Of a stretch of 64,000 bases of DNA, positions 46,519 to 61,400 are shown piece by piece. A program made the translations under genes and the position numbers. This DNA is from Deltaproteobacteria bacterium (GTDB lineage Bacteria; Desulfobacterota; Desulfuromonadia; Geobacterales; Geobacteraceae), in the NCBI GenBank assembly GCA_021847245.1, contig JAJZUC010000005.1:1-64000 (forward strand). The letters are read 5' to 3'. The notes under the pieces were generated by a model that was not told where the DNA came from, made no database searches, and was given only the letters and a program-made list of their open reading frames with translations. Position 1 is the stretch's first letter; each line of letters begins with the position of its first letter.

Positions 46519-48042
46519 ATGAAAGCGAATCACAAACGAGTAGCCGTATCATTGGCCTTCGCCCTTGCTCTGGGAATTTCGGGGCAAGTGTCAGCCCAAC
46601 CGACCGACAGTCTGAACAACAACGATGTTCAACTGGCCGATGATAGGGGAACGAATGCGAACGATGGATCCGCTGCCGTTGGGTCTAATTCGCTGAACGA
46701 CAACACGCTCGGGATTAATTCGAACAACAACAACTCCAATCAGAACAACAAGGACATCGACGTCACGGCCACCAAGACCCAAGACTCCAACAACAACAAC
46801 TCCAACCAGAACAACAAGGACATCGATGTTACCAAGACAACCACGCTTACTGCCACCAAGACCGATGACTCCCACGACAACAACTCCAACCAGAATAACA
46901 AGGACATCGACGTCACTGCCACCAAGACCGATGACTCCTACAACAACAACTCCAATCAGAACAACAAGGACATCGACGTTACCAAGACAACCACGCTTAC
47001 TGCCACCAAGACCGATGACTCCCACGACAATAACTCCAATCAGAACAACAAGGACATTGACATCACTAAAACCAATACCATTACCACAACAAAAACCGAC
47101 ACCGACATAGACAAAGCGAAAGCGGGCGACGGTTCCATGGCGGCAAACGACGAATCGACCATCGAAAACAAGACCAAGGCCGAGGACCGCAGCGCTGCAG
47201 CTACCAACAATTCAACGGCATCAGTAGATAACACGAACAACTCGGACCAGAACAACAACAAGAGCAAGACTTTCACCAATTCCTTCAACAAGGACGAAAG
47301 CGACAAGGCCAAGGCTGAAAAGAATGCTCTCAACAACAGCGATCACAACATAGTCACCAGTGACTCGCTCAACAACAATACCGTCAACAGCAACAACAAG
47401 TCACTCGATGTCGATATTAAAGACAGCAACCTGACCAAGAACGAGAGCGGCAATGCGGTGGTCGACAGCGAAAAAGTCAATATTGACTCCTTCAACGGGA
47501 ACGTGAAAGACGTCGATGAGGGAAGCGCGGTTGCTACCGGTGGCGGGAGCGCGTCCGTCGACAGCAGCATCAACGCCACTGGCGCGAGAAGCATTGCCGC
47601 CGGCGGCGACGTGGATGCAACGTACGACTCGAATAATAACAACAATAACGCAGAAGGTAAAGGCAGTGCAGCGGCCAACAACGGTTCAACTGCCACGGTG
47701 GATAACAGCAAGAGCAAGGCCGGGAATTACGGCGCCGCAGCCAACAACGGCGGAACCGCCAACGTGAACAACAGCGTGAACGACTCCTACAACACCGACG
47801 ACAGCACCAACATAACCGTCGGCGACGTGGGTGTGGCGATTGCCAACAGCAGCCTGCAGGGCCAGGTCAGCGGCAACATGACCGCCCTTCCTCCGGGTTC
47901 CGAAATGCTTACCGGCGACAACAGAATCGACCACAACGCTGTAAACAACGCTGCCGGCATCACCGCATTGTCCCAGAACAGCGGTCCCAACTCCCTGATC
48001 CAACAGTCCGTCAACGTGCAGTCCAACATGAACCTGCCGTAG
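46519..48042 (+). CDS. Secreted Asn/Lys/Asp/Thr-rich repeat protein, Fap-like amyloid subunit candidate
   Basis: 507 aa from the ATG behind AAAGGAGGA; the ORF-track start lies at the promoter. A signal peptide (VAVSLAFALALGISGQVSA) is followed by NSNQNNKDIDVT tandem repeats (about residues 69-195), then a long Asn/Ser/Asp/Lys-rich region with GGxxxV(D/N)NS motifs. The C-terminus AAGITALSQNSGPNSLIQQSVNVQSNM resembles the Q/N-S-G-N-x-L-x-Q-x-S-V ends of FapA/B/C family proteins. Cysteine is absent and aromatic residues are scarce. Together with the C39 peptidase and FapF-like genes I infer an exported fibre-forming subunit. The repeat sequence differs from Pseudomonas Fap repeats. Confidence 0.7.
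   Translation: MKANHKRVAVSLAFALALGISGQVSAQPTDSLNNNDVQLADDRGTNANDGSAAVGSNSLNDNTLGINSNNNNSNQNNKDIDVTATKTQDSNNNNSNQNNKDIDVTKTTTLTATKTDDSHDNNSNQNNKDIDVTATKTDDSYNNNSNQNNKDIDVTKTTTLTATKTDDSHDNNSNQNNKDIDITKTNTITTTKTDTDIDKAKAGDGSMAANDESTIENKTKAEDRSAAATNNSTASVDNTNNSDQNNNKSKTFTNSFNKDESDKAKAEKNALNNSDHNIVTSDSLNNNTVNSNNKSLDVDIKDSNLTKNESGNAVVDSEKVNIDSFNGNVKDVDEGSAVATGGGSASVDSSINATGARSIAAGGDVDATYDSNNNNNNAEGKGSAAANNGSTATVDNSKSKAGNYGAAANNGGTANVNNSVNDSYNTDDSTNITVGDVGVAIANSSLQGQVSGNMTALPPGSEMLTGDNRIDHNAVNNAAGITALSQNSGPNSLIQQSVNVQSNMNLP
46723..47103 (+). repeat. Five tandem units alternating 66 and 84 bp
   Basis: Units begin at 46723, 46789, 46873, 46939 and 47023. They encode NNNNSNQNNKDIDVTATKT-DS (22 aa) alternating with the same core plus KTTTLT (28 aa), so the higher-order period is 150 bp. 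DNA identity between corresponding units is high, and the core AACTCCAAYCAGAAYAACAAGGACAT is nearly invariant, indicating recent duplication. Confidence 0.9.
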
Positions 48043-48147: not shown

Positions 48148-48549
48148 ATGAGACAGATAACGAAACTCCTACTTGCGGCACTGGTGCTATTCGGGAGCGC
48201 GCTTTCGGTGCGGGAGTCTCTGGCGGAGCCGGTCGATCCTACGATGGCTGGACAGAATGATGTTGTGGATGTCTCGCAATTTGGTTCAGCGGCGTCCGGT
48301 AAAGATCTGATGGCGCAGAACGGACGCCTGGACATGCAGGTCGACCAGCTCAATTTTCAGACGAGCACCAACAATCAGAGCAACTCCTACGTGGGGGGGA
48401 ATTACCTCCTCAACCCCGGTGCAACCGGCATCAACTCGGTGAGCGATTCCGCGTTTGCCAATGCCAGCGGGATTGCCACCGTGATCCAGAACTCGGGCAA
48501 CCAGGTTCTTATTCAGAATTCAATGATTCTCAACCTGTTATTGCGGTAG
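48148..48549 (+). CDS. Small secreted protein with Fap-type C-terminus (minor subunit or chaperone candidate)
   Basis: 133 aa from ATG 48148 (AGAGGTG upstream). The signal peptide is LLLAALVLFGSALSVRESLA. The mature chain is Asn/Gln/Ser-rich (LNFQTSTNNQSNSYVGGNYLLNPG) and ends ASGIATVIQNSGNQVLIQNSMILNLLLR, which mirrors the C-terminal motif of the preceding repeat protein. The tandem Asn-rich repeats are absent. By analogy with Fap loci it could be a nucleator or chaperone-like partner (FapA/FapB role), but the sequence alone does not decide which. Confidence 0.65.
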   Translation: MRQITKLLLAALVLFGSALSVRESLAEPVDPTMAGQNDVVDVSQFGSAASGKDLMAQNGRLDMQVDQLNFQTSTNNQSNSYVGGNYLLNPGATGINSVSDSAFANASGIATVIQNSGNQVLIQNSMILNLLLR

Positions 48550-48676: not shown

Positions 48677-49375
48677 ATGAAATCGCCCCTCACGATACGA
48701 CTAATCCTTGGCACCTTCGCCATTCTCGCCGCGTCATCTTCGGCTGCCGCCGCAACCATGACGGTTCGCGGCGGGAGTGGCGATTTCACTGTCAAGGTGA
48801 TGAGCATGCAGGAGCGACGCTTTCGCACCACCATTCGGCAGCAGAACGATTTCAGTTGCGGCTCGGCGGCACTCGCCACCCTGCTCACCTATCATTACGA
48901 GGACAAGGTCAGCGAGCAGGAGGTGTTCGACGCGATGTTCGAGGCCGGCGATCAGGAGAAGATCCGCCGGGAAGGCTTTTCGATGCTCGATATGAAAAAG
49001 TACCTGGAGGCCAATGGTTACACGGCGAACGGCTACAAGATCGACCTGCCAAAGCTGGCGAAGGTCGGGGTGCCGGCCATCGCCCTGATCAACCATAACG
49101 GCTACAAGCATTTTGTGGTGGTCAAGGGTGTAACGGCGAAGGAGGTTCTTCTGGGAGATCCATCGCTGGGGACGAGGACCATTCAGCGGCCCGACTTCGA
49201 GAAGATGTGGAACGGGTTAGTCTTTATCGTGCTTAACAAGAAGAACGTGGCGCAGAATCACTTCAACAATGAGAAGGAATGGCGTGTGAGGGAGAAAGCG
49301 CCGCTTGGCATGGCGCTTAACCCGAGCGAGCTGGCGAATATGACGCTGTTTCTGCCGGGGCGTAACGACTTTTAG
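48677..49375 (+). CDS. Periplasmic C39-like cysteine peptidase, FapD-like
   Basis: 232 aa with a signal peptide (LILGTFAILAASSSAAAA). The peptidase C39 domain has oxyanion Gln and nucleophilic Cys in RQQNDFSCGSAALATLLTYHY, the catalytic His in NGYKHFVVVKG and Asp in LLGDPSLG. There is no ABC transporter or membrane domain, so it is a free exported peptidase like FapD rather than a bacteriocin exporter. C39 enzymes cut after double-glycine leaders; the next gene encodes a protein with exactly such a leader. The tail (about 60 aa, EKEWRVREKAPLGMALNPSELANMTLFLPGRNDF) is of unknown role. Confidence 0.9.
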   Translation: MKSPLTIRLILGTFAILAASSSAAAATMTVRGGSGDFTVKVMSMQERRFRTTIRQQNDFSCGSAALATLLTYHYEDKVSEQEVFDAMFEAGDQEKIRREGFSMLDMKKYLEANGYTANGYKIDLPKLAKVGVPAIALINHNGYKHFVVVKGVTAKEVLLGDPSLGTRTIQRPDFEKMWNGLVFIVLNKKNVAQNHFNNEKEWRVREKAPLGMALNPSELANMTLFLPGRNDF

Positions 49376-49387
49376 CGGGGGCAGGCC

Positions 49388-49903
49388 ATGCGTACACCTT
49401 GCATAAAACGGATTCTGGCAGGTGCCACGTCTCTGGTGATCGGAATGGCGGCTTATCCCGCCCTGGCGGACTCCCATGACGTCGACGCGGGAGCTGCAGT
49501 CAGTAACCAGGAGCTGGATACCATGCGCGGCGGCTATGACCTGGGAAGTGGGGTGCTGATACCATTCGGCATCGACATAAGGAGAGACGTATTCATCGAC
49601 GGCGTGCGTGTGGCGACGAGCACCCTGAATATCCCCATCGGGGGGGCGCCGGGTCAGCAATCGTCAGGCCAGGGGAACGCCACCAGTCCGCTCGTGATTC
49701 AGTCGGGCACCGGCAACAGTGTGTCGCCGGACGTGCTCAAGAACCTCGGGCAAGGGCTTTTCACGTTTATTCAGAACAGCCTCGACAACAAGGTGATCCA
49801 GAATGTGACGCAGATCAACGCCACCCTTAACAGCCTGAGCGTCTACAGGCAGATGAACCTCTCATTTTCGCTGAACCAGCAGCTTATCCATTCAATCCGG
49901 TAA
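49388..49903 (+). CDS. Secreted protein with double-glycine leader, FapE-like position
   Basis: 171 aa, 12 bp after the peptidase gene. A Sec signal peptide ends at about ALA-27. It is followed by VSNQELDTMRGG (residues 38-49), which fits the double-glycine leader consensus LSxxELxxIxGG, so cleavage is expected between Gly49 and Tyr50. The mature part is Gly/Ser/Asn/Gln-rich (PGQQSSGQGNATSPLVIQSGTGNSV) with a C-terminal stretch of polar-hydrophobic alternation (IQNVTQINATLNSLSVYRQMNLSF). It is the likely substrate of the adjacent C39 peptidase. Whether it is a fibre component or an export factor is not known. Confidence 0.7.
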   Translation: MRTPCIKRILAGATSLVIGMAAYPALADSHDVDAGAAVSNQELDTMRGGYDLGSGVLIPFGIDIRRDVFIDGVRVATSTLNIPIGGAPGQQSSGQGNATSPLVIQSGTGNSVSPDVLKNLGQGLFTFIQNSLDNKVIQNVTQINATLNSLSVYRQMNLSFSLNQQLIHSIR

Positions 49904-49920: not shown

Positions 49921-51099
49921 TCAGAAACTGACCGGGACGCGCAGCGTCAACTGGACATCCGGCGCCGATTCCGTAACACCCACCCCCAGTGACAGGTTGA
50001 GATTGGTATTTTCGAAGAGCTTGTAGGAATAGCCGAACAACAGGGTCCCCACATAGGTATTCTGGATATCGGCAAAAAACTGGTTGTTTATCCTGGTCTT
50101 GCCGATAATGCTGTGGTCGTAGCCGATACTGAACGACGCCTTTTCGTTTATTGCCAGTCCCATCCCGAAATTGAATTCAACCACATCTCCCGGATCGATG
50201 GTTCCGAAATCCCGTCCGTTAACCACGCCAACGTTGCGCTCAATATTCCACGTGTAGCTGACGCCGCCGAAGAACACCGCCGGGTCTGAAGGGAAAATGG
50301 CGGTCAATCCTCCCTGGACCGCCCAGAAGCCTGAACCGCGGGGGAGCTCCGTCTGCAGGTTGGTGGCGGGATCTATCGGCACCTCGAAACCGTTCTTGCC
50401 GGTGGGGGCCTTGGCCCGCAGGCTTGCCGTGAAGAAAGGACCGGTGCTGGGCTGGTTCAGCTGGTAGCGCAAACCGAACTCCACGTCACCGATGCCGTTG
50501 CCTTCCGCATCGAAGACACTCTCTCTGTCGTTTTGTTGTTGAGTGAAGGGTCGGGTAGTTGATGTCTCTGACTGGTAGACGTAGGGGACTCTCGCTTCGA
50601 CTTCGAACCGGTTCGTGAGCCCATAGCGGGCGGCCAGGGCGGTAACGTAGGTGTGGCGGGTGACGCTCCGAACGTCGATGAGGCCGATGGTTACCGCTGG
50701 AATGTAGGTATAGCCGATGAGGGCGATCCGTCTGGTTGAAGAGAGCGAATACTGAAAGGACGGTTCCAGCACCAAGGTTCCCCGTGGGGTCAGGATCCCC
50801 GGCTGCTCGAAGATGGGAGCGATTTCAGGGGGTTTTGCTTCGGGGGACGGTTCCGGCGGACGCCCGACCGGCTGCGTTGCCGCCGATTTCTCTTTCGGTG
50901 TGACTTGCTGCTGTGCTGGCTGGCTTTCTTTCTGTCCGCTTTTTTTCGGGGTTGGTTTTCCGGTTTGGGGTTCCTTGGCCGGCGTGGTGGTTTCAGAAGC
51001 AGGTGGGGCGGGTGTGGGATCACCGTGGGCGGTTGTGATTGTCAGTAGAGTGGTAGCCACACAGAGGCAGGTCAAGACTCTGAAACGGTTTGCAGCCAT
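49921..51099 (-). CDS. Outer-membrane beta-barrel exporter, FapF-like
   Basis: 392 aa from the ATG at 51099, which gives a clean signal peptide (FRVLTCLCVATTLLTITTAHG); the ORF-track start is further upstream. A Pro/Lys/Glu/Gln-rich linker (residues about 27-90) precedes the barrel, which starts PGILTPRGTLVLEPSFQYS and ends in the outer-membrane signature Phe (RVPVSF). Repeated aromatic beta strands (YGLTNRFEVEARVPYVYQ, VFFGGVSYTWNIE, FGYSYKLFENTNLNLSLGVGV) support a 12-strand or larger barrel. FapF exports amyloid subunits in Pseudomonas. The trimeric coiled coil of FapF is not visible; the Pro-rich linker takes its place. It is convergent with the + strand genes. Confidence 0.78.
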   Translation of the reverse strand: MAANRFRVLTCLCVATTLLTITTAHGDPTPAPPASETTTPAKEPQTGKPTPKKSGQKESQPAQQQVTPKEKSAATQPVGRPPEPSPEAKPPEIAPIFEQPGILTPRGTLVLEPSFQYSLSSTRRIALIGYTYIPAVTIGLIDVRSVTRHTYVTALAARYGLTNRFEVEARVPYVYQSETSTTRPFTQQQNDRESVFDAEGNGIGDVEFGLRYQLNQPSTGPFFTASLRAKAPTGKNGFEVPIDPATNLQTELPRGSGFWAVQGGLTAIFPSDPAVFFGGVSYTWNIERNVGVVNGRDFGTIDPGDVVEFNFGMGLAINEKASFSIGYDHSIIGKTRINNQFFADIQNTYVGTLLFGYSYKLFENTNLNLSLGVGVTESAPDVQLTLRVPVSF

Positions 51100-51174
51100 A
51101 AAATTTATCCCCCTGAGGTTTGATTGAATTACACGGAAAATAATTAGCATCGATTAAAAGCATCGATGGCACCG

Positions 51175-51275: not shown

Positions 51276-52613
51276 TTACGCACTTATCCCGAACTTGTTC
51301 ATCAACCGGTAGAGGGTTACCCGCGATACGCCAAGTTGCCGCGCAGCTTCCGATACGTTGTTCATGGTGCGTTGCAGGCTGGCCCTGATCGCCTCGCATT
51401 CGGCCTTCTCCCGTGCGCTGTCCAAAGACAAGACCCTTCCTGCCGTATCGGGATTGTCCAGGCCGAGATCCGCTGCGGTGATCAGCCGGCCCTCACACAT
51501 TACCGAGGCCCGCTTCACGCGGTTGATCAATTCACGCACGTTCCCCGGCCACGGGTGACTATACATGGCGCGTAACGCCCTTTTGCTGAAACCCCTTGCG
51601 GCGAGCTTTTCCTTGCGTGCAAACTCTTTCAGGCAGGTATGGGCGAGCAATTCTATGTCCCGTTCCCGTTCCCGCAAAGGAGGCATTTTGAGACGCAGCA
51701 CGTTGAGCCGATAATAGAGGTCTTCGCGAAAGCGCCCATCCTTCACGGCCTGTTCGATGTCTACGTTGGTGGCGGCTATCACCCGGGCATCAACGGGGAT
51801 GACCCGGTTCGATCCGATACGTTCCACGGTTTTTTCCTGCAAGAAGCGCAGCAGGTTGACCTGAAGCTCCAGTGGGAGCTCGCCGATTTCATCGAGGAAA
51901 ACGGTCCCCCGCGCCGCTGCCTCGATCCGGCCGATCTTGCGCTGAAAGGCGCCGGTAAAGGCCCCTTTTTCGTGGCCGAACAGCTCGCTCTGGATCAGCG
52001 GAGTCGGCAAGGCGCCACAATTGACCGCAACAAACGGCCATTGCCGACGCGGGGAGTGAGAATGTATGGCCTGCGCCACCAGCTCCTTTCCGGTGCCGCT
52101 CTCGCCGGTAATAAGGATCGGAGAGTCCGAGCCCTGCATCTTGCACATGTTCTGGTAGAGCTCCTGCATGCTGCTGCTTGTCCCCACCATCCGATGACCG
52201 CCGGCATTCCTGTTCGGTGAGTCGAGCCGGCTCTTCAGTGCGGCTTTGCCGTAGGCATGTCCGAGGGTAACCACCAGGCGCATCGGATCCACCGGGAGGG
52301 TATGGAAGTCGTGGAAATTTTCCATGACAAACCTGCCGGCTTCCGGCGTCTGCAGACCGGCGGCCGGGACGAGTGCTACCCACTCCATGGTGTCTCTGGA
52401 CAGGATGACGTCCTCGATCGTTTCAAGAGTGCTTTCATGGAAATCGGCACAGTGGACGAGACCTACGTGCAGGTTCCCTTTTCCGATCGCGGCCTTGGCG
52501 TCGACACTGTTTGTCGCCATCCGCAGGTCCCAGCCTTGCGACTCGAGTACCCCGGCAGGAAGATGAGGCCGTTCATCCAGGCTCAGTATGAGTATTTCCC
52601 GCCTTGTCACCAT
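51276..52613 (-). CDS. Sigma-54-dependent transcriptional activator (NtrC superfamily)
   Basis: 445 aa from ATG 52613. The first about 130 residues resemble a degenerate receiver domain ([14 protein letters not shown]) without an obvious phospho-acceptor Asp, as in VpsR/FleQ-like activators. The AAA+ domain is complete: [11 protein letters not shown] (Walker A), [12 protein letters not shown] (the GAFTGA sigma-54 contact loop), [12 protein letters not shown] (Walker B) and [24 protein letters not shown] Fis-type helix-turn-helix closes it ([25 protein letters not shown]). It lies between the barrel gene and the adhesin genes and is the obvious activator for the sigma-54 promoter at 46430. Confidence 0.95.
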
Positions 52614-52638
52614 CAACCTCAGAGTAAATCGGGTTTTT

Positions 52639-54027
52639 CTACAGGGTGATCAATTTCAGCGCCAGTTTGAGAATTATCAGCACGTCCCCGATGGTTATCC
52701 TCCCGTCGGGTAGGGGGGTGCCGTTTGTCATGGGAGAAACGTCTCCGTACAGGATATCGTCGGCGGTCGGCATGGCGAGACCCGTGCTGATTTTCAGTGC
52801 CCTGATGACGTCCAACATGTCCACTTTGTCATCTTTCGTGATATCGCCGACTTTCCCCTGTGCAACGTGAATGATGTTGCGCGGCACGCTCGCCGAGTTG
52901 CCCGCCTCGTCGGACGCCGTGACGGTCACGTGGTAGAGCTTGTCCTCGGTGAAGGTCACATCCTGCTCGAAGCCCTGCCCCGACGTGAGATCCTTGAACA
53001 CGTTGAGGACGGTCCCATCACGGGCAACGGTTACGGAGACTTTGGTCAGGGCGTCGGATACCGTACCTGTGATCCTGATGGTTGGCTGGGCGCTCCTTAT
53101 GTCCTGCAGGGGGTAGGTCAGCTCCAGGGACGGAGCCTGGTCGTCATAGGTGATGGTGCGTTTCTGGGAGGTGCCGGCATTTCCGACCGAGTCGGTGGCG
53201 CTTATCTCGATGGTATTGATGCCGTTGGCAAGGTTTGCGGTTACAGTGAAGTTGTTGCCGCTCGGAGATGAAAGCTGGGGCGCGCCGCCGTTTACCCGCA
53301 TCTCCACCGTGGCGGTTTCGTCAACCGTTCCCGTGACATCCACGGATGACTTTGATGTCACGCTGTTGTCCGCCGGGGATGTGATCACAAGCGTAGGGGG
53401 GGTCAGGTCGAGGGTGACGGTTCTCCGGTTGCTGCTCCAGTTGCCGGCTCGGTCCGTTGCGACGGTCGTTATGGCATTTGCACCGGCATTCAGCTGCAGC
53501 GGATAACTGAACGAGCCATTGGTATTGACCCCGACACCGGCGCCGTTGATGGTGAGGCTCTTGACGCCGTTTTCGTCGCTTACCGATCCCGCGATGTTAA
53601 GGGTCGGATTTCCGGTGACTGCGCCGTCGGTGAGGGTGGATAGTAATAATTCCGGCGCCTTGGTGTCCACCGTCCATTGACTGGTGGAGGCGTCTGCATC
53701 GGCTTGCCAGACGCCGGAACTGTCCCTGCCGACCACGTAGATGGTGTGGGGACCGTCGGGAATATTTGCAAGGGGTACCGCCTCGCTCACCGGGGTAATG
53801 GCCGATTTGGTTCCCGGTTTCCAGTAATCGAGCCAGTATTGGTAGGCGACGATATCGTAGCCGCTTACCGTAATGGTGGCGCTGGTCAGACGGGTAGGGC
53901 TCTGGGGAGCGCCGGTGATTTCGGCCATGGGCGCCCCTTGGGCCTCCAGCGCGTAAAGGAGACAGAAGCCGGTGACAGAAAGTGCGGACCGCAGTAATCG
54001 TAATAGCTTGCTCATTGGTCTTGACAT
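52639..54027 (-). CDS. Secreted Ig-like domain protein with C-terminal dockerin
   Basis: 462 aa from the ATG at 54027, which has GGAGG five bases ahead. A signal peptide (LLRLLRSALSVTGFCLLYALEAQG) leads to several Ig-like or Big-type domains (ITGAPQSPTRLTSATITVSGYD; LLLSTLTDGAVTGNPTLNIAGSVSDENGVKSLTINGAGVGV; LVITSPADNSVTSKSSVDVTGTV). The C-terminal 70 residues hold two Ca2+-binding dockerin-type half-repeats: DITKDDKVDMLDVIRALK and DVSPMTNGTPLPDGRITIGDVLIILKLAL. It resembles the C-terminus of the neighbouring giant protein. The predicted role is an adhesin or matrix protein held by a cohesin. Confidence 0.82.
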   Translation of the reverse strand: MSRPMSKLLRLLRSALSVTGFCLLYALEAQGAPMAEITGAPQSPTRLTSATITVSGYDIVAYQYWLDYWKPGTKSAITPVSEAVPLANIPDGPHTIYVVGRDSSGVWQADADASTSQWTVDTKAPELLLSTLTDGAVTGNPTLNIAGSVSDENGVKSLTINGAGVGVNTNGSFSYPLQLNAGANAITTVATDRAGNWSSNRRTVTLDLTPPTLVITSPADNSVTSKSSVDVTGTVDETATVEMRVNGGAPQLSSPSGNNFTVTANLANGINTIEISATDSVGNAGTSQKRTITYDDQAPSLELTYPLQDIRSAQPTIRITGTVSDALTKVSVTVARDGTVLNVFKDLTSGQGFEQDVTFTEDKLYHVTVTASDEAGNSASVPRNIIHVAQGKVGDITKDDKVDMLDVIRALKISTGLAMPTADDILYGDVSPMTNGTPLPDGRITIGDVLIILKLALKLITL

Positions 54028-54095
54028 TTTGCCCTCCATGGCAGAAATGCCTCCGATCGGGGCCCTCGGGAAGGGCCGTGATTTCGGAAGTCCAT

Positions 54096-55373
54096 CTATT
54101 CCGTCACCGTTGCGTTTATGAATTTGCCGTTTGGGCCGTCGTTAGACGGGGTCGATCCGCCGTTATTCGGATCGTACAGGGCCGCATCGAACGAGACGAT
54201 CTTGAAATCGGAGATGGGGGGTGGTGTCCCCGCCGGGACGTCGCACTTGATCGTCAACAGCTCGCCAATCCCGAAACTCCCCGACACCATTCCCACCGTT
54301 ACCCGCCCCCTGGCCGTATCCGATGGGGGGATGTAATTTCCCATCGGGTAAATCCCCTGCGGAAGCGTCGCGGAGGTGGTCACCACCCCGCTCAGGGTTT
54401 GGTACGCCTCTCCGGAAAAGTCTGCCTTCAGCGTTACCCCTTGCGGCAATTCCACTGTCACCACAAACCCGCCGAAGGAGAAACCGGGGGGTGGTTCTCC
54501 GGTGGTTGTCACCTTGACGGTCCTGGTTGTTCCCCCTGCGTTGGCCAGGTTGGTCAGTCTGATATCTTTCACAACGGTCGGATTCCTGTCCGATGCCAGG
54601 AACTCCTTCAAGGCGGTCTGAAAGGCCGCGGCGTTCTCGGCGGACATGGCGCCGTCGTCGGCCAGATCGGTGGCCAGGGTGGTCAATACGTCGGACAGCT
54701 TACCGTTCTTGGCCAGCTGGGAGATGGCTGCCAGCGCCAGGGTGTAATCTTTCTGCGCCTGGTCAGTACCCGATTTCAGGAATTCGTCGCCAGTGAGTGC
54801 CACAGGTTGCGTCGCAATGATATCCACCTTGAAGAGGTCCGAAATCAGGGCATTTGCGCTGTTGACCTTGTCCGCGGTAAGGGTGCCGCTTCCCTTGGTG
54901 GCAATTTGCGCCGCAAGCTCCGTCAGGGGGGTGACTGCCACCTTCATTTTATCGGTGGGATTGGCAATGAGCGCCCGTAGCGGTTCCTCCGTGGTCACAG
55001 TCTTGTCCACAGCGGTGGCCTCATCGGTGTACGTGCCGGTGGCCTCTATCTCCACCACACCGCTGTAGGAACCGTTGAAGGTTTTGGTGGAGCTGATGTG
55101 CGTAGAGTAATTCCCGAAGGAGTTGATCCTGATCGGCTCCTTCTCCGGTATCGAAATTTCTTGTCTGGTCCTGTCGGGATTCACGGCATAGACCTTGACG
55201 TACCCGTCCTTGAAGAGCCCCTTCGAGACAACGCCGCTTATTTTGGTATCGGTATCCGTCGGATTGGTCTGCTCGGTTGTCGATCCGCCGCCGCTGAACC
55301 CGCCGAACCCGCAACCGCATATGTTTGTTGTCACGAGGATAAGTATCAGCCAGAAGAATGTCTTTGCTTTCAT
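54096..55373 (-). CDS. Lipoprotein with a cohesin-like C-terminal domain
   Basis: 425 aa from the ATG at 55373 (GAGGTG upstream). The N-terminus KTFFWLILILVTTNICGCGFGG carries a lipobox-type cysteine (ICG-C). An initial transthyretin-like beta domain (ISGVVSKGLFKDGYVKVYAVN) is followed by a helical region (LIANPTDKMKVAVTPLTELAAQIA to FQTALKEFLAS). The last about 140 residues (FGGFVVTVELPQGVTLKADFSGEAY...RGRVTVGMVSGSFGIGELLTIKCDVPAGTPPPISDFKIVSFDAALYD) have the strand pattern of a cohesin domain. It lies between two genes whose products end in dockerins, so it is a likely surface anchor for both. The cohesin call is by pattern only. Confidence 0.65.
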   Translation of the reverse strand: MKAKTFFWLILILVTTNICGCGFGGFSGGGSTTEQTNPTDTDTKISGVVSKGLFKDGYVKVYAVNPDRTRQEISIPEKEPIRINSFGNYSTHISSTKTFNGSYSGVVEIEATGTYTDEATAVDKTVTTEEPLRALIANPTDKMKVAVTPLTELAAQIATKGSGTLTADKVNSANALISDLFKVDIIATQPVALTGDEFLKSGTDQAQKDYTLALAAISQLAKNGKLSDVLTTLATDLADDGAMSAENAAAFQTALKEFLASDRNPTVVKDIRLTNLANAGGTTRTVKVTTTGEPPPGFSFGGFVVTVELPQGVTLKADFSGEAYQTLSGVVTTSATLPQGIYPMGNYIPPSDTARGRVTVGMVSGSFGIGELLTIKCDVPAGTPPPISDFKIVSFDAALYDPNNGGSTPSNDGPNGKFINATVTE

Positions 55374-55423
55374 AACGGGCACCTCATGATGTCCAACCCC
55401 TTCAAATCGCTGTTACTGCATGG

Positions 55424-58400
55424 TTACTGTTGAATGATTTTCAACCACTTTTTCAGGATTACCAGTGTGTCACTTATGTCGATCTTGCCGTCGGGAACGG
55501 ATATGCCGTTAACGAACGGCGAGACGTCGCCGACGATCAGGTCACCCTCCGTCGGCTGTCTGAGACCCACGGCAATCCTCAATGCAATGAGAACGTCGAG
55601 GACGGAGAGTTGGCCATCGGCGTTGAGATCGCCGCTTGGCGGGTCTGCCCAAGTGATGTTCCGTGGGACGCTGCTCTCGTTCCCCGCTTCGTCCGTTGCT
55701 TTGACGATTACGTGATAGATGAGGCCTTTTGTCGGGAAAATCAGCTTCTGTTCGAAAGTCTGCCCGGAACCGTCGTTTACCAGCGGAGGCGGGTCGAGTG
55801 GTTCGCCGTTGCGGGTGATGCTGACGGTGACATTGGTCAGGGCATCGGCCACTCTGCCCTTGATCGTCAGGTACCCGTCCGGGATCCTTATGTCCTTCGG
55901 GGGGTAGGTGATCTCCAGGGACGGCTTCTGGTCGTCAAAGATGACGACCTGGCTGTACGAGCCCTTGCTTCCGGCCAGGTCGGTGACGGTGAGCACGATG
56001 TTGTTGCACCCCTCAACCAGCGGGACCGAAGCGGTGAAATGTGTATCGGTCATTTCCGCAAGCTGGGTGGAACGGAGCACCGACTCCGTCTGGCAGTCGT
56101 AAACCGAGACCTCGATCTGCCCGATGGCGCTGGCAGGTTTACTCATGGTGCCGGTAACATCCACTGGAGACTTTGCAATCTTGCTGTCGGCCGCCGGGGA
56201 GATATCGGAAAGCGTGGTGCCGTTCGGATCGTAGGTGATGTTTCTGGTAAAGCGGGGGGTGCTCTCATTCCCCGCGCGATCGGTGGCTATGATGGTGATC
56301 CGGTTCGCCCCGAGGCTCAGTTTCGGGATGTTGTGCCTGTAATCGCCGTTTGCCTCGATCCCGTTCCCCGGCGTCAACTCGGCCGAGTAGTACATATTGT
56401 TGCCGCTGTCAGAGGCTGAAATGACCAGAGTCCGGATGCCGTTTAGGTCGCCGGCGTTTCCGCTGACGTTGAGATCTTCCTTGTTGGTGAACGAGTCGGG
56501 TTGGAGCATTGTTACGTTCAGGGTCGGCGGCGTCGTGTCTATGACAATGGCCAGAGTGCCGCTTGCCGACCAGTTCCCCGCCGTGTCGCGTTCCTGCACG
56601 TAGAGGGTGTGGGTTCCCTCGCTCAGTGACGCGGCCGGTGTAAAGGTCGTGGCGGCGGTCTCTGTCGCCCCGGTGGCGAGATCGGCGTCGTCAAGCCTGA
56701 AGCGGAAGGTCCCGTTGCCACTTTCGTCCGAGGTCCAGCTCCAGGTCGGTCTGGTATTGTTGGTCGGCGATGGTCCCGCGACTGCGGGAGCGGCCGGCGC
56801 GGTGGTGTCCACGACAATGGTGAAACTGCCGGTTGCCGACCAGTTCCCCGCCGCGTCCCGTTCCTGGACGTAGAGGGTGTGGGTTGCCTCGCTCAGCACA
56901 TCGGTCGGGGTGAAAGATGTTGCCGTGGTTTCCGTCGCCCCGGTGGAGAGATCGGCGTCGTCGAGCTTGTAGCGGAAAGTTCCGTTCCCGCCATTGCCCC
57001 CCGAGCTCCAGCTCCACGTCGGGGTGGTGCTGTTGGTCGGCGTCGTGCCTGAGACCGTCGTTGCGCCTGGGGCCGTGGTATCCACGACTATGGTGAGGGT
57101 GCCGCTTGCGGACCAGTTCGCCGCCGCGTCCCGCTCCTGCACGTAGAGCGTATGGCTTCCATCGTTCAGCGCGTTGGCCGGAGTGAAGGTCGTGGCGGTG
57201 GTTTCCATTGCACCGGTCGAAAGATCGGCATTGTCGAGCCTGTAACGGAAATACCCGTTGCCCCCGTTTCCTCCCGAGGTCCAGCTCCAGGCAGGCGTTG
57301 CCGTGTTGCTCGGCGTCGTGCCGCTCACTGCCGGCGCGGCCGGCGCACTCCTGTCTATCACCAGCGGTCCGTCACTGGAGGCAAAGACCGCTGTCTTCCC
57401 GTCTTCTATCCTGGCATAGACGTAATAGGCTCCGTCCGGCAGGGTTGACGTATCCCAGGAGTAACTGGTCTTCCCCAAGACGATGCCGGAAACTATCTGC
57501 GTTACGTTCTGGCTGCCGTCGTAAACAAATTTTTCATTACCGTAATAAAGGGTGATCTGGGCGGCCGGGCTGTCCGGGTCGGAGGCGTTCCAGGTTATGG
57601 TGTAGCGTGTGGCGTTGGTCGCCGGTTCGGCTGCGCCCGGAGCAGTCAGTGTGATGCTCGGCGGCTGGTTGACCCCCTGGTTCTTGACCGTGAACGAGCT
57701 TGTCGCCATCCACGTGCTGTAATAGCCGTGCTCGTCCTTGGCCTTGGCTCTCCAGTAGTATCGGGTGTTGTCGGCAAGAGGCGTGTTGTCGGCAACCTTC
57801 CAGCTCGTTCCCGGGACTTCTGCACCGGCCACGAATGTCTTGAGGGTGCTGTCGCTGTAAATCTCGAAGTTGCAGGAGATGGCATCGTGGTCCACATCGG
57901 TGGTGCTGACGGTAAGAGTAGGCGTAGTGGAAGTCACCTCGCCGTTGTCGGAGGGAGCGACAATGGTCGGCACGTTAGGGGCCTCATTCTGCAGGTTGAC
58001 GAAAAACTGGGCGCTCATCCACGGACCGTCGGCCTGGCCGTCGTTTGCCTTCACTCGCCAGTACCAGACGGAGTTGTCGGTGAGAGGTTTGGCAACCGCC
58101 CAGCTCGTTGTCCCCGCCCCCTCGGCGATAATGGGTGAAGTCTGCTTGTTGGGACTGTCGAAGGTGTTGACGGTGTCGATCTCGAAAGCGTAGCTCAGGG
58201 TGTCCCTGTCCGCGTCGGTGGCGTTGTTGACCTTCAGGGTCGGGGTTAGCGTAACGACTTCATTCAAGTTGTACGTCCCGTTTGGCGGTGTATTGACCGT
58301 CGGAGCGGTCGGGGCGTCGTTGGCGGTGTTCGTGAAGAAGGCGGCGCTCACCCAGTTGCTGGTTGCCCCGTGCTGGTCAACAGCCCTGCTTCTCCAGTAG

Positions 58401-61400
58401 TATTGGGTGTTGTCGGCAAGTTTCCCTGCAGGAACTGTCCATGGCGTACTTCCGTCATTCCCCTGCGCAATCCCGGAGGCATTCGCCGCGATGTTCGCGA
58501 AGCCGCTGTCTGTTGCCACGACAAATTCGTAGGTGATGGTGTCTTCATCCATGTCGGCTGCGTTGGTGACGGTGAGGGGAGGGGTCAGCGTCGACACCAC
58601 GGTATTGTCGCCCGGCGAGCTGATTCCCGGATCGGTGGGCTTGTCGTTCGCAGTGTTGACGAAGAAGCTGGCCGTGGGCATGTCGCCGCTGTTCCTGTAT
58701 CCGTCATTTGCCCTGCATCTCCAGTAATACAGGGTGTTGTCGACAAGCTTGCCGGATGGAATCGTCCAGGAGGCGACCCCGCCGCTGGCGGCAATCCCGC
58801 TCTGAGAGGCTGAGACTGTGCTGAAATCGTTTGCCGTGCTGATCTCGAAGATATAGGTGACCGGATCGTTGTCCGGGTCGGTTGAAGCGTTTACCTTGAG
58901 GGTCGGAGTGAGCGAAGTGACTTCGCTGACATTCGCTACCCCGTCGGGCGGTGAATTTAGCGACGGTATGCCCGGCGCGCCGTTGGAATCGGAGGGTCTT
59001 GTAAAGGAAGCGGTCCTCGCGCTGCTGCTCACGGCGTTCCCTGCCGGGTCGGTAATGTTGGCCTTGGCGGTTATGGTGTATTGCGTCCCGATAGCCTGGG
59101 GGCTCGTGGTCAGACGATAGGTGGCGCCGTTCTGCGAGACTTCCGTTACGGCCAGGCCGTTGTCGGCCGTGTAATTCGCCGCAACCGCCGCACCGAGAAC
59201 CGTTTCGCTGAAGGAGACATCCACATGGGTCGAGTCCACATATGACGCCGTGGCGTTCATGGTCGGCGCGGTGGTGTCGACCATTATGGCGAAGCTGCCC
59301 CTGGCCGACCAGTTCCCCGCCGCATCCCGTTCCTGCACGTAGAGGGTGTGACTCCCTTCGGTCAGTCCCGCGCCCGGGGTGAAGGATGTTGCCGTGGTTT
59401 CGGTCGCGCCGGTCGCCAGGTCATTGTCGTCGAGCTTGTAGCGGAAGGTGCCGTTGCCGCCATTACCTCCCGAACTCCAGTTCCAGGTGGGGGTCGTGTC
59501 TTTTGTCGGCGTCGTGCCGGTGACTGTGGGAGCCGCCGGGGCCGTAGTGTCTACAACTATGGCGAAGCTGCCGCTGGCCGACCAGTTGCCGGCCCCATCC
59601 CGCTCCTGGACGTAGAGGGTGTGGGTTCCTTCGCTCTGCGCAATGGAAGGAACAAAGGTGGTAGCCGTGGTTTCGGTCGCGCCGGCTGTCAGGTTGTTGT
59701 CGTCGAGCTTGTAGCGGAAGGTCCCGTTGCCGCCACCTCCGCCGGTACTCCAGCTCCAGGTGGGGGTCGTGTCGTTGATCGGGCTTGTGCCGGTGACTTT
59801 AGGGGCGGTCGGGGCCGTAGTGTCGACGACGATGGCGAAGCTGCCGCTGGTCGACCAGTTCCCGGCCGCGTCCCGTTCCTGGACGTAGAGGGTGTGACTC
59901 CCTTCGTTCTGCGCCGCTGAAGGGGTAAAGGTCGTGGCCGTGGTTTCCGTCGCGCCGGTTGTGAAATTATTGTTGTCGAGCTTGTAGCGGAAGGTGCCGT
60001 TGCCGCCCCCCGAACTCCAGCTCCAGGTGGGGGTCGTGTTGTTGACCGGCGTCGTGCCGGTGACTGTCGGGGCCGCTGGTGCCGAAGTGTCGACTACGAT
60101 GGCGAAGCTGCCGCTGGCCGACCAGTTCCCGGCCGCGTCCCGTTCCTGGACGTAGAGGGTGTGACTCCCTTCGTTCTGCGTCGCGGAAGGGGTAAAGGTC
60201 GTGGCCGTGGTTTCCGTCGCGCCGGTTGTGAAATTATTGTCGTCGAGCTTGTAACGGAAGGTGCCGTTGCCGCCCCCAGAACTCCAGCTCCAGGTGGGGG
60301 TCGTGTCGTTGGTCGGCGTCGTGCCGGTGACTGTCGGGGTTGTCGGGGCCGTGGTGTCGACGACGATGGCGAAGCTGCCGCTGGCGGACCAGTTCCCGGC
60401 CGCGTCCCGCTCTTGCACGTAGAGGGTGTGACTCCCTTCGCTCTGCACATCGGTCGGTGTGAAAGATGTTGCCGCGGTCTCCGTCGCGCCGGTCGCCAGG
60501 TTGCTGTCGTCCAGCTTGTAGCGGTAGGTGCCGTTGCCGCCATTGCCCCCTGAACTCCAGCTCCAGGTGGGTGTCGTGTCGTTGGTCGGCGACGTGCCGG
60601 TGACTTTGGGTGCGGTTGGAGCCGTGGTGTCGACGACGATGGCGAAGCTGCCGCTGGCGGACCAGTTGCCGGCCGCGTCCCGCTCCTGGACGTAAAAAGT
60701 GTGGGTTCCCTGGCTCTGTTCCGAGGTAGGGGTAAAGGTCGTAGCCGTGGTTTCGGTCGCGCCGGTCGCCAGGTTGTTGTCGTCCAGCTTGTAGCGGTAG
60801 GTGCCGTTGCCGCCTCCGCCTCCCGAACTCCAACTCCAGGTGGGGGTGGTGTCGTTGGTCGGCGTCGTGCCGGTAACTGTCGGTGCCGTTGGTGCGGTGG
60901 TATCCACGTCGATGGCGAAGCTGCCGGTTGTCGACCAGTTCCCCGCTGCATTCCGCTCCTGGACGTAGAGGGTGTGGGTTCCCGGGCTCTGCGCCGAGGT
61001 CGGGGTAAAGGTCGTGGCCGTGGTCTCCGTCGTGCCAGTCGCCAGGTTGCTGTCGTCCAGCTTGTAGCGATAGGTGCCGTTGCCGCCGCCTCCGCCGCTA
61101 CTCCAGCTCCAGGTGGGTGTCGTGTCGTTGGTTGGCGACGTGCCGGTGACTGTCGGGGCGGTTGGGGCTGTGGTGTCCACGACGATGGCGAAGCTGCCGC
61201 TCGCGGACCAGCTTCCGGCCGCGTCCCGCTCCTGGACGTAAAGAGTGTGGGTTCCCGGGCTCTGCTCCGAGGTCGGGGTAAAGGTCGTGGCCGTGGTCTC
61301 CGTCGCGCCGGTCGCCAGATTGTTGTCGTCCAGCTTGTAGCGATAGGTGCCGTTGCCGCCGCCGCCGCTACTCCAGCTCCAGGTGGGTGTCGTGTCGTTG

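Follow-up and report, generated by a model that had tools for sequence, protein, structure and literature searches.

Canonical double-glycine leader behind a Sec-type signal peptide in the Fap-like matrix locus of a genome resembling Geobacteraceae

The window analysed here, the whole stretch of 64,000 nucleotides, comes from a Geobacteraceae-like genome, whose nearest named relative found is Geomesophilobacter sediminis, and contains a matrix locus of the Fap-like kind. This is probably a functional-amyloid secretion locus with two-step precursor processing, in which a protein of 171 amino acids in the position of FapE would first lose a Sec signal peptide and then, in the periplasm, a double-glycine leader that fits the C39 peptidase encoded next door. 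That the cargo is amyloid is suggested by its QN-rich motifs only. What is new with respect to the literature is the canonical and conserved leader on the protein in the FapE position, which makes the open question of the FapD target directly testable.

Layout of the locus

The genes for an Asn-rich repeat protein, a protein of 133 amino acids, a C39 peptidase and the 171-aa protein with the double-glycine leader (hereafter the GG protein) follow one another on the forward strand, and the barrel gene is convergent to them. The features of the locus are as follows:

46519..48042, + strand: Asn-rich tandem-repeat Sec-type protein (150-bp repeat unit, about 20% Asn, no GG leader)
48148..48549, + strand: small Sec-type protein, 133 aa, with a degenerate leader ASGKDLMAQNGR ending in GR and a C-terminal VIQNSGNQVLIQNSMILNL
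48677..49375, + strand: FapD-like C39 cysteine peptidase, 232 aa, with its own signal peptide (PF03412, E 6e-26)
49388..49903, + strand: FapE-position protein, 171 aa, with a Sec-type signal peptide and a double-glycine leader (14 Geobacterales genomes have a homologue next to a FapD-like gene)
49388..49468, + strand: predicted Sec signal peptide of the latter, residues 1-27 (ALA/D), read by eye and present in all aligned homologues
49499..49534, + strand: leader motif VSNQELDTMRGG, residues 38-49, with a predicted cut after G49
49535..49900, + strand: predicted mature protein, from the putative N-terminus Tyr50 to the end
49921..51150, - strand: FapF-like outer-membrane barrel (NCBIfam FapF, E 1.7e-43)
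51276..52616, - strand: VpsR-domain sigma-54-dependent regulator (Pfam VpsR, E 1.7e-13; Sigma54_activat, E 1e-70)

The gene before that of the GG protein encodes a stand-alone C39 peptidase with a signal peptide, exactly as the initial annotation had described it in coordinates, length and sequence. A free C39 peptidase predicted to be periplasmic is not new as such, enzymes of this type being already known as the FapD family, and the functional-amyloid context had been missed. The best NCBIfam match of the peptidase is FapD (“fibril amyloid maturation endopeptidase,” E 4e-51), with FilB next, and its score of 173 bits against the FapD model lies below the equivalog cut-off of 330 bits. The catalytic residues Q55, C61 (codon 48857-48859), H145 and D161 are all intact and are invariant across 24 relatives, so that the enzyme combines the Gln/Cys/His/Asp set of family C39 with a predicted papain-like fold and, despite the score below the equivalog cut-off, has the signal peptide and the intact catalytic Cys of a FapD. 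A profile built from the peptidase and its relatives retrieves the protease domain of LahT (6mpz, E 1.5e-18), PCAT1 and ComA. An AlphaFold2 model, the alignment behind which comprised the window and genome loci only, has a mean pLDDT of 80, with values above 90 over most of the catalytic domain, and is closest to the structures of substrate-bound PCAT1, ComA and leader-bound LahT (E about 4e-9 to 2e-8), with a TM-score of about 0.8 against the isolated domains when normalised to those domains.

It had also been suggested that the peptidase processes itself at an RGG following its signal peptide. Indeed, the triplet exists (residues 31-33), but it is not conserved, and relatives have SGG, FLG or QGN in its place. 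Since, in addition, no leader with the -12/-8/-7 residues lies ahead of it, and the model places it at a β-hairpin turn preceding the catalytic domain, self-processing was rejected.

The product of the barrel gene matches the solved FapF structure 5o67 over residues 110-408 (E 1.5e-33), which identifies it as an outer-membrane barrel of the trimeric type, while its score of 149 bits against the FapF model is below the NCBIfam equivalog cut-off of 700. Of 57 loci, 45 have a FapF-like homologue in the neighbourhood of the C39 gene. The gene is convergent in the window and in most Geobacterales relatives and co-directional in Cupriavidus, Croceicoccus and Polymorphobacter; in the latter two the order of repeat protein, small protein, C39 peptidase, GG protein and barrel recurs with all genes co-directional. 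Because the barrel gene of the window lies on the opposite strand, so that there is no single co-directional operon ending in fapF, the locus is named Fap-like.

Neither the 133-aa protein nor the repeat protein has a significant match in NCBIfam or Pfam. The repeat unit of about 150 bp in the latter contains NNNSNQNNKDIDVT blocks, homologues occupy the same place in relatives, and the protein is probably a fibre protein. Homologues of the 133-aa protein sit directly before the peptidase in relatives. Its C-terminus contains TVIQNSGNQVLIQNSMILNL, similar to the amyloid-like stretch IQNSLDNKVIQN in the mature part of the GG protein. Within its family the Geobacterales relatives keep the GR (TGRQ; VSNENLGDQTGR), and those of Cupriavidus and Photobacterium have a true RGG. 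Possible roles of the 133-aa protein are those of a fibre subunit or of a further substrate, which would then have Arg at -1.

The VpsR-domain activator is likely to be the regulator of the locus, and the occurrence of sigma-54 regulators near the C39 gene in 22 of the 57 loci suggests a shared biofilm-type regulation. Beyond it, on the reverse strand (52639-63802), are encoded an Ig-like protein with a dockerin-like C-terminus, a Big_13/cadherin repeat protein of 2792 aa and, between them, an unassigned protein of 428 aa, all of which probably belong to this matrix locus as surface adhesins.

The leader and its conservation

The gene of the GG protein starts 12 nt downstream of the peptidase gene on the same strand. 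Its product has no significant family match in NCBIfam and Pfam and no tblastn match on plasmids, and the designation FapE-like fits it by position and conserved linkage. A Sec signal peptide followed by a near-perfect GG leader had been noted before, and the coordinates, length and sequence given for it are correct. Cleavage by signal peptidase is predicted by eye at ALA27/D28, which puts the end of the GG 22 residues beyond the Sec site. The motif VSNQELDTMRGG ends in G48-G49, followed by Tyr50, and conforms to the double-glycine consensus L(-12)-x3-E(-8)-L(-7)...G(-2)G(-1) (PMC6363468), with V(-12), E(-8), L(-7), M(-4), G(-2) and G(-1). In LahT the leader residues -4, -7 and -12 sit in hydrophobic pockets (PMC6363468), for which the leader of the window offers M, L and V, respectively.

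Ten Geobacterales homologues share 33-46% identity with the GG protein, and the alignment of all 11 has only 12 invariant columns, four of which are L43, R47, G48 and G49. By profile search the protein is present in 14 of the 141 genomes of the order, window genome included; 12 of these had already been found via the peptidase, and the two new ones (L118 and L119) likewise have an adjacent peptidase gene, and their leaders read SDQDLSAIRGGF and SDAELATLRGGF. The leader is kept in all 14 Geobacterales homologues, each of them beside a FapD-like gene. At one locus (L102 5660-6073, genome G028) the GG protein is apparently split into two pieces by a frameshift, with the peptidase intact.

The same leader design is shared by proteins at the FapE position in other Desulfobacterota and in Alpha-, Beta- and Gammaproteobacteria, with RGG followed usually by Y or F (for example VPEEELGEVRGGY, LTDDELNQYRGGY, LTDDEMSSLRGGF, ITDYELATMRGGI and ALSEEVLARQRGGI); in the Cupriavidus protein the leader, ARLEESRGGF, comes after a long N-terminal stretch. 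Among 31 FapE-position proteins, E is found at -8 in 22 and Y or F at +1 in 28, both positions being free of the search pattern, while the counts at -7 (L in 28, M in the remaining 3), -3 (R in 29) and -2/-1 (GG in 28, GR in 3) are partly conditioned by it. The leaders of L025 and L024 (ARLDKQRGGF and ARLEESRGGF) were read by eye, and L025 stands outside these counts. At the loci L074, L089, L096 and L104 the FapE-position protein is absent.

The leader in the GG protein exceeds chance. A survey of the neighbours of free C39 peptidases for the same motif, as proposed in the initial annotation, revealed an enrichment: GG-ending leaders are carried by 43 of 319 Sec-type ORFs on the same strand as, and at most 3.5 kb from, secreted-type C39 genes, as compared with 7 of 475 controls, which lie on the opposite strand or at a greater distance from the C39 gene. 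With a looser pattern the numbers were 50/319 and 22/475, for which the Fisher p of 2e-7 is indicative only, since the ORFs were called mechanically and include spurious ones, the signal peptides were assigned by a crude rule and the genomes are related. Over 200 shuffles the looser pattern gave a mean of 19.4 and a maximum of 34 matches, and among the ORFs that overlap the peptidase gene or lie at most 60 bases away it was matched in 28 of 81.

Two-step processing and its alternatives

That a Sec cut is followed by a second one, made after the GG in the periplasm by the C39 peptidase next door, as the initial annotation had envisaged, is well supported as a prediction by the conservation of the leader, by the linkage of the two genes and by the finding of no other C39 gene in several relatives. 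Export across the inner membrane via Sec, with loss of the signal peptide, would be common to the FapD-like peptidase, the FapE-like protein and the proteins of the fibre. The propeptide VSNQELDTMRGG would then be taken up in the periplasm by the leader groove of the peptidase, which, as sequence and conservation suggest, would cut after Gly49 to yield a form that starts at Tyr50. By analogy with Pseudomonas Fap, the mature FapE-like protein would exit via, or open, the FapF-like barrel and may help to build or anchor the extracellular fibre. From the sequence we infer both the periplasmic cleavage after G49 and the role of the protein in secretion. Counting against this reading are the score of the peptidase below the FapD cut-off, the FapF-like gene on the opposite strand, the GR of three of the 31 FapE-position proteins and the four loci where such a protein is absent. 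The leader yields an exact prediction, a cut before Tyr50, and could serve as a well-defined substrate in vitro.

The peptidase could instead act mainly on the periplasmic region of FapF or on the 133-aa protein, with the GG of the 171-aa protein as a secondary site. Cleavage of FapF was considered by Rouse et al. (PMC5557850), and in the 133-aa family a motif resembling a leader ends in GR or RGG. However, a full canonical leader is found in the window only on the FapE-position protein, and the GG of some FapF-like proteins is, by eye, a part of the barrel start motif, for which reason FapF was rejected as the carrier of a canonical site. We therefore regard this as unlikely.

More doubtful still is that the leader is a docking site only, bound by the FapD-like protein as a chaperone in the manner of the C39-like domains of T1SS, so that the GG would stay uncut. 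Inactive C39-like domains do exist (PMC5557850), but Cys, His, Asp and Gln are invariant in the 24 relatives of the peptidase, and in the 11 homologues of the GG protein it is the GG itself that is invariant, besides the docking residues at -7/-8. Furthermore, Pseudomonas FapD requires its cysteine (PMC5557850).

The GG protein could also be a bacteriocin that uses a haemocin-like export route rather than a fibre component, given that haemocin and the Campylobacter plasmid bacteriocins likewise combine a Sec signal and a GG leader with a secreted C39 enzyme and a barrel-like gene. Against this, amyloid-like QN-rich stretches are found in the repeat protein and the 133-aa protein as well as in the GG protein, the locus shows no immunity gene, and its neighbours are the Ig-like and cadherin-like surface proteins and the VpsR-type regulator, which makes a bacteriocin very improbable.

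Processing of the leader in the cytoplasm was rejected. No PF03412 peptidase besides the FapD-like gene was found in seven relatives that are at least 99% complete (G021, G011, G042, G007, G316, G272 and G434, the first three being single-contig assemblies) or in the 78%-complete window genome. As the FapD-like gene is the sole PF03412 gene in the seven relatives, the leader cannot be cut there by an ABC transporter containing such a peptidase. In addition, the leader is not N-terminal, as it is in substrates of cytoplasmic ABC-transporter processing, but is preceded by a Sec-type signal. That the start is misannotated, and that an ABC transporter with a peptidase domain processes the protein from a cytosolic leader some 30 residues long, is hardly credible. 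In-frame start codons do occur at residues 17 and 20, but the N-terminal Lys/Arg and hydrophobic signal sequences are retained in homologues, there is no other C39 gene in the genomes just named and the gene is linked without exception to one for a C39 enzyme with a signal peptide.

Wider pattern and comparison with known systems

In Desulfobacterota, Fil-like loci (L076-L095) contain clusters of Sec-type proteins with motifs such as LTEEDMVEVTGQ and an adjoining C39 enzyme and barrel; these motifs follow the signal peptide and are of the type xxExxMxEVTGQ, with TGQ replacing GG. On Acinetobacter plasmids (L034 3447-3773, 5340-5807 and 6224-6637; L112 404-970) small Gly-rich proteins with a Sec-type signal and a ELSRQEMKDTQGA or ELSNQEMKDTQGA leader are encoded beside a FapF-like barrel and a C39 enzyme that has a signal peptide, in what appear to be bacteriocin-like loci. 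The Campylobacter plasmid bacteriocins (L117 381-977 and 6969-7598; L114 5923-6357) have a Sec-type signal followed by leaders of the LNLDEMKQVKGGY type, and their genes adjoin a signal-peptide C39 enzyme and an HmcD-like gene.

In plasmid bacteriocin loci a KGG or QGA leader comes after the Sec-type signal, and barrel-like genes and C39 enzymes with a signal peptide are encoded nearby; this occurrence of Sec-plus-leader proteins suggests a general route from Sec via a periplasmic C39 enzyme to a barrel. Whether signal-peptide C39 enzymes and FapF/HmcD-type barrels form one widespread two-membrane export route, with Sec, a periplasmic cut of a leader that has Gly at -2 and exit through the barrel, for functional amyloids, Fil proteins and plasmid bacteriocins, and with subfamily-specific residues at -3 and -1 (RGG, TGQ, TGR, KGG, QGA), is in our view an evenly balanced question. 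The shift of double-glycine processing from the cytoplasm to the periplasm would then be a recurrent design, apparently common to amyloid and bacteriocin loci, and a Sec signal followed by ELxxxRGG[YF] provides a sequence handle for such cargo in genomes.

PCAT1, ComA, LahT and the double-glycine peptides share with the window the C39 fold, the catalytic residues and the leader consensus. However, their peptidases are of the type fused to a transporter that cuts in the cytoplasm, whereas the enzyme of the window is free, has a signal peptide and lacks an ABC domain. In the haemocin-type operon of Avibacterium p250 the precursor has a Sec-type signal followed by VLSQKEMSEVKGG, and a secreted-type C39 enzyme, an HmcD gene and the hemocin structural protein are combined in one operon; the similarity of the peptidases is weak (32% over 63%), and the operon differs in encoding a bacteriocin with an immunity gene and an ATPase gene and no QN-rich fibre proteins. 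As for the Fil system of Acinetobacter (FilA, FilB, FilC), the models for the FilB-type C39 enzyme (E 3e-36) and the FilC-type barrel (E 2e-14) match the proteins of the window, but FilA carries MDDAALSAATGQ, with GQ instead of GG, and the cargo is pilus-like.

The closest parallel is drawn with Pseudomonas Fap (fapABCDEF), where FapD works in the periplasm, its active-site cysteine is required for the secretion of FapC, and peptides from the first ~70 residues of FapE are missing (PMC5557850). The target and cut site of FapD were unproven in 2017, FapE being suspected and the Pseudomonas Fap proteins lacking a canonical site (PMC5557850); a review of 2018 still gave the substrate as undetermined and noted fapD-fapF pairs in five further phyla (PMC6173800), and in the literature of 2025 the target is only “thought to” involve the N-terminus of FapE. 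Both systems have a signal-peptide C39 peptidase, a FapF-type barrel, QN-rich Sec-exported cargo and a gene between those of peptidase and barrel, with co-directional genes in relatives of the window locus. By contrast, in the window the FapF-like gene is convergent, the repeat protein is unlike FapC by family search, the peptidase falls below the FapD equivalog cut-off, and the FapE-position protein has the canonical GG leader reported to be absent in Pseudomonas. This leader points to the long-sought target of the FapD family and to its probable cut site.
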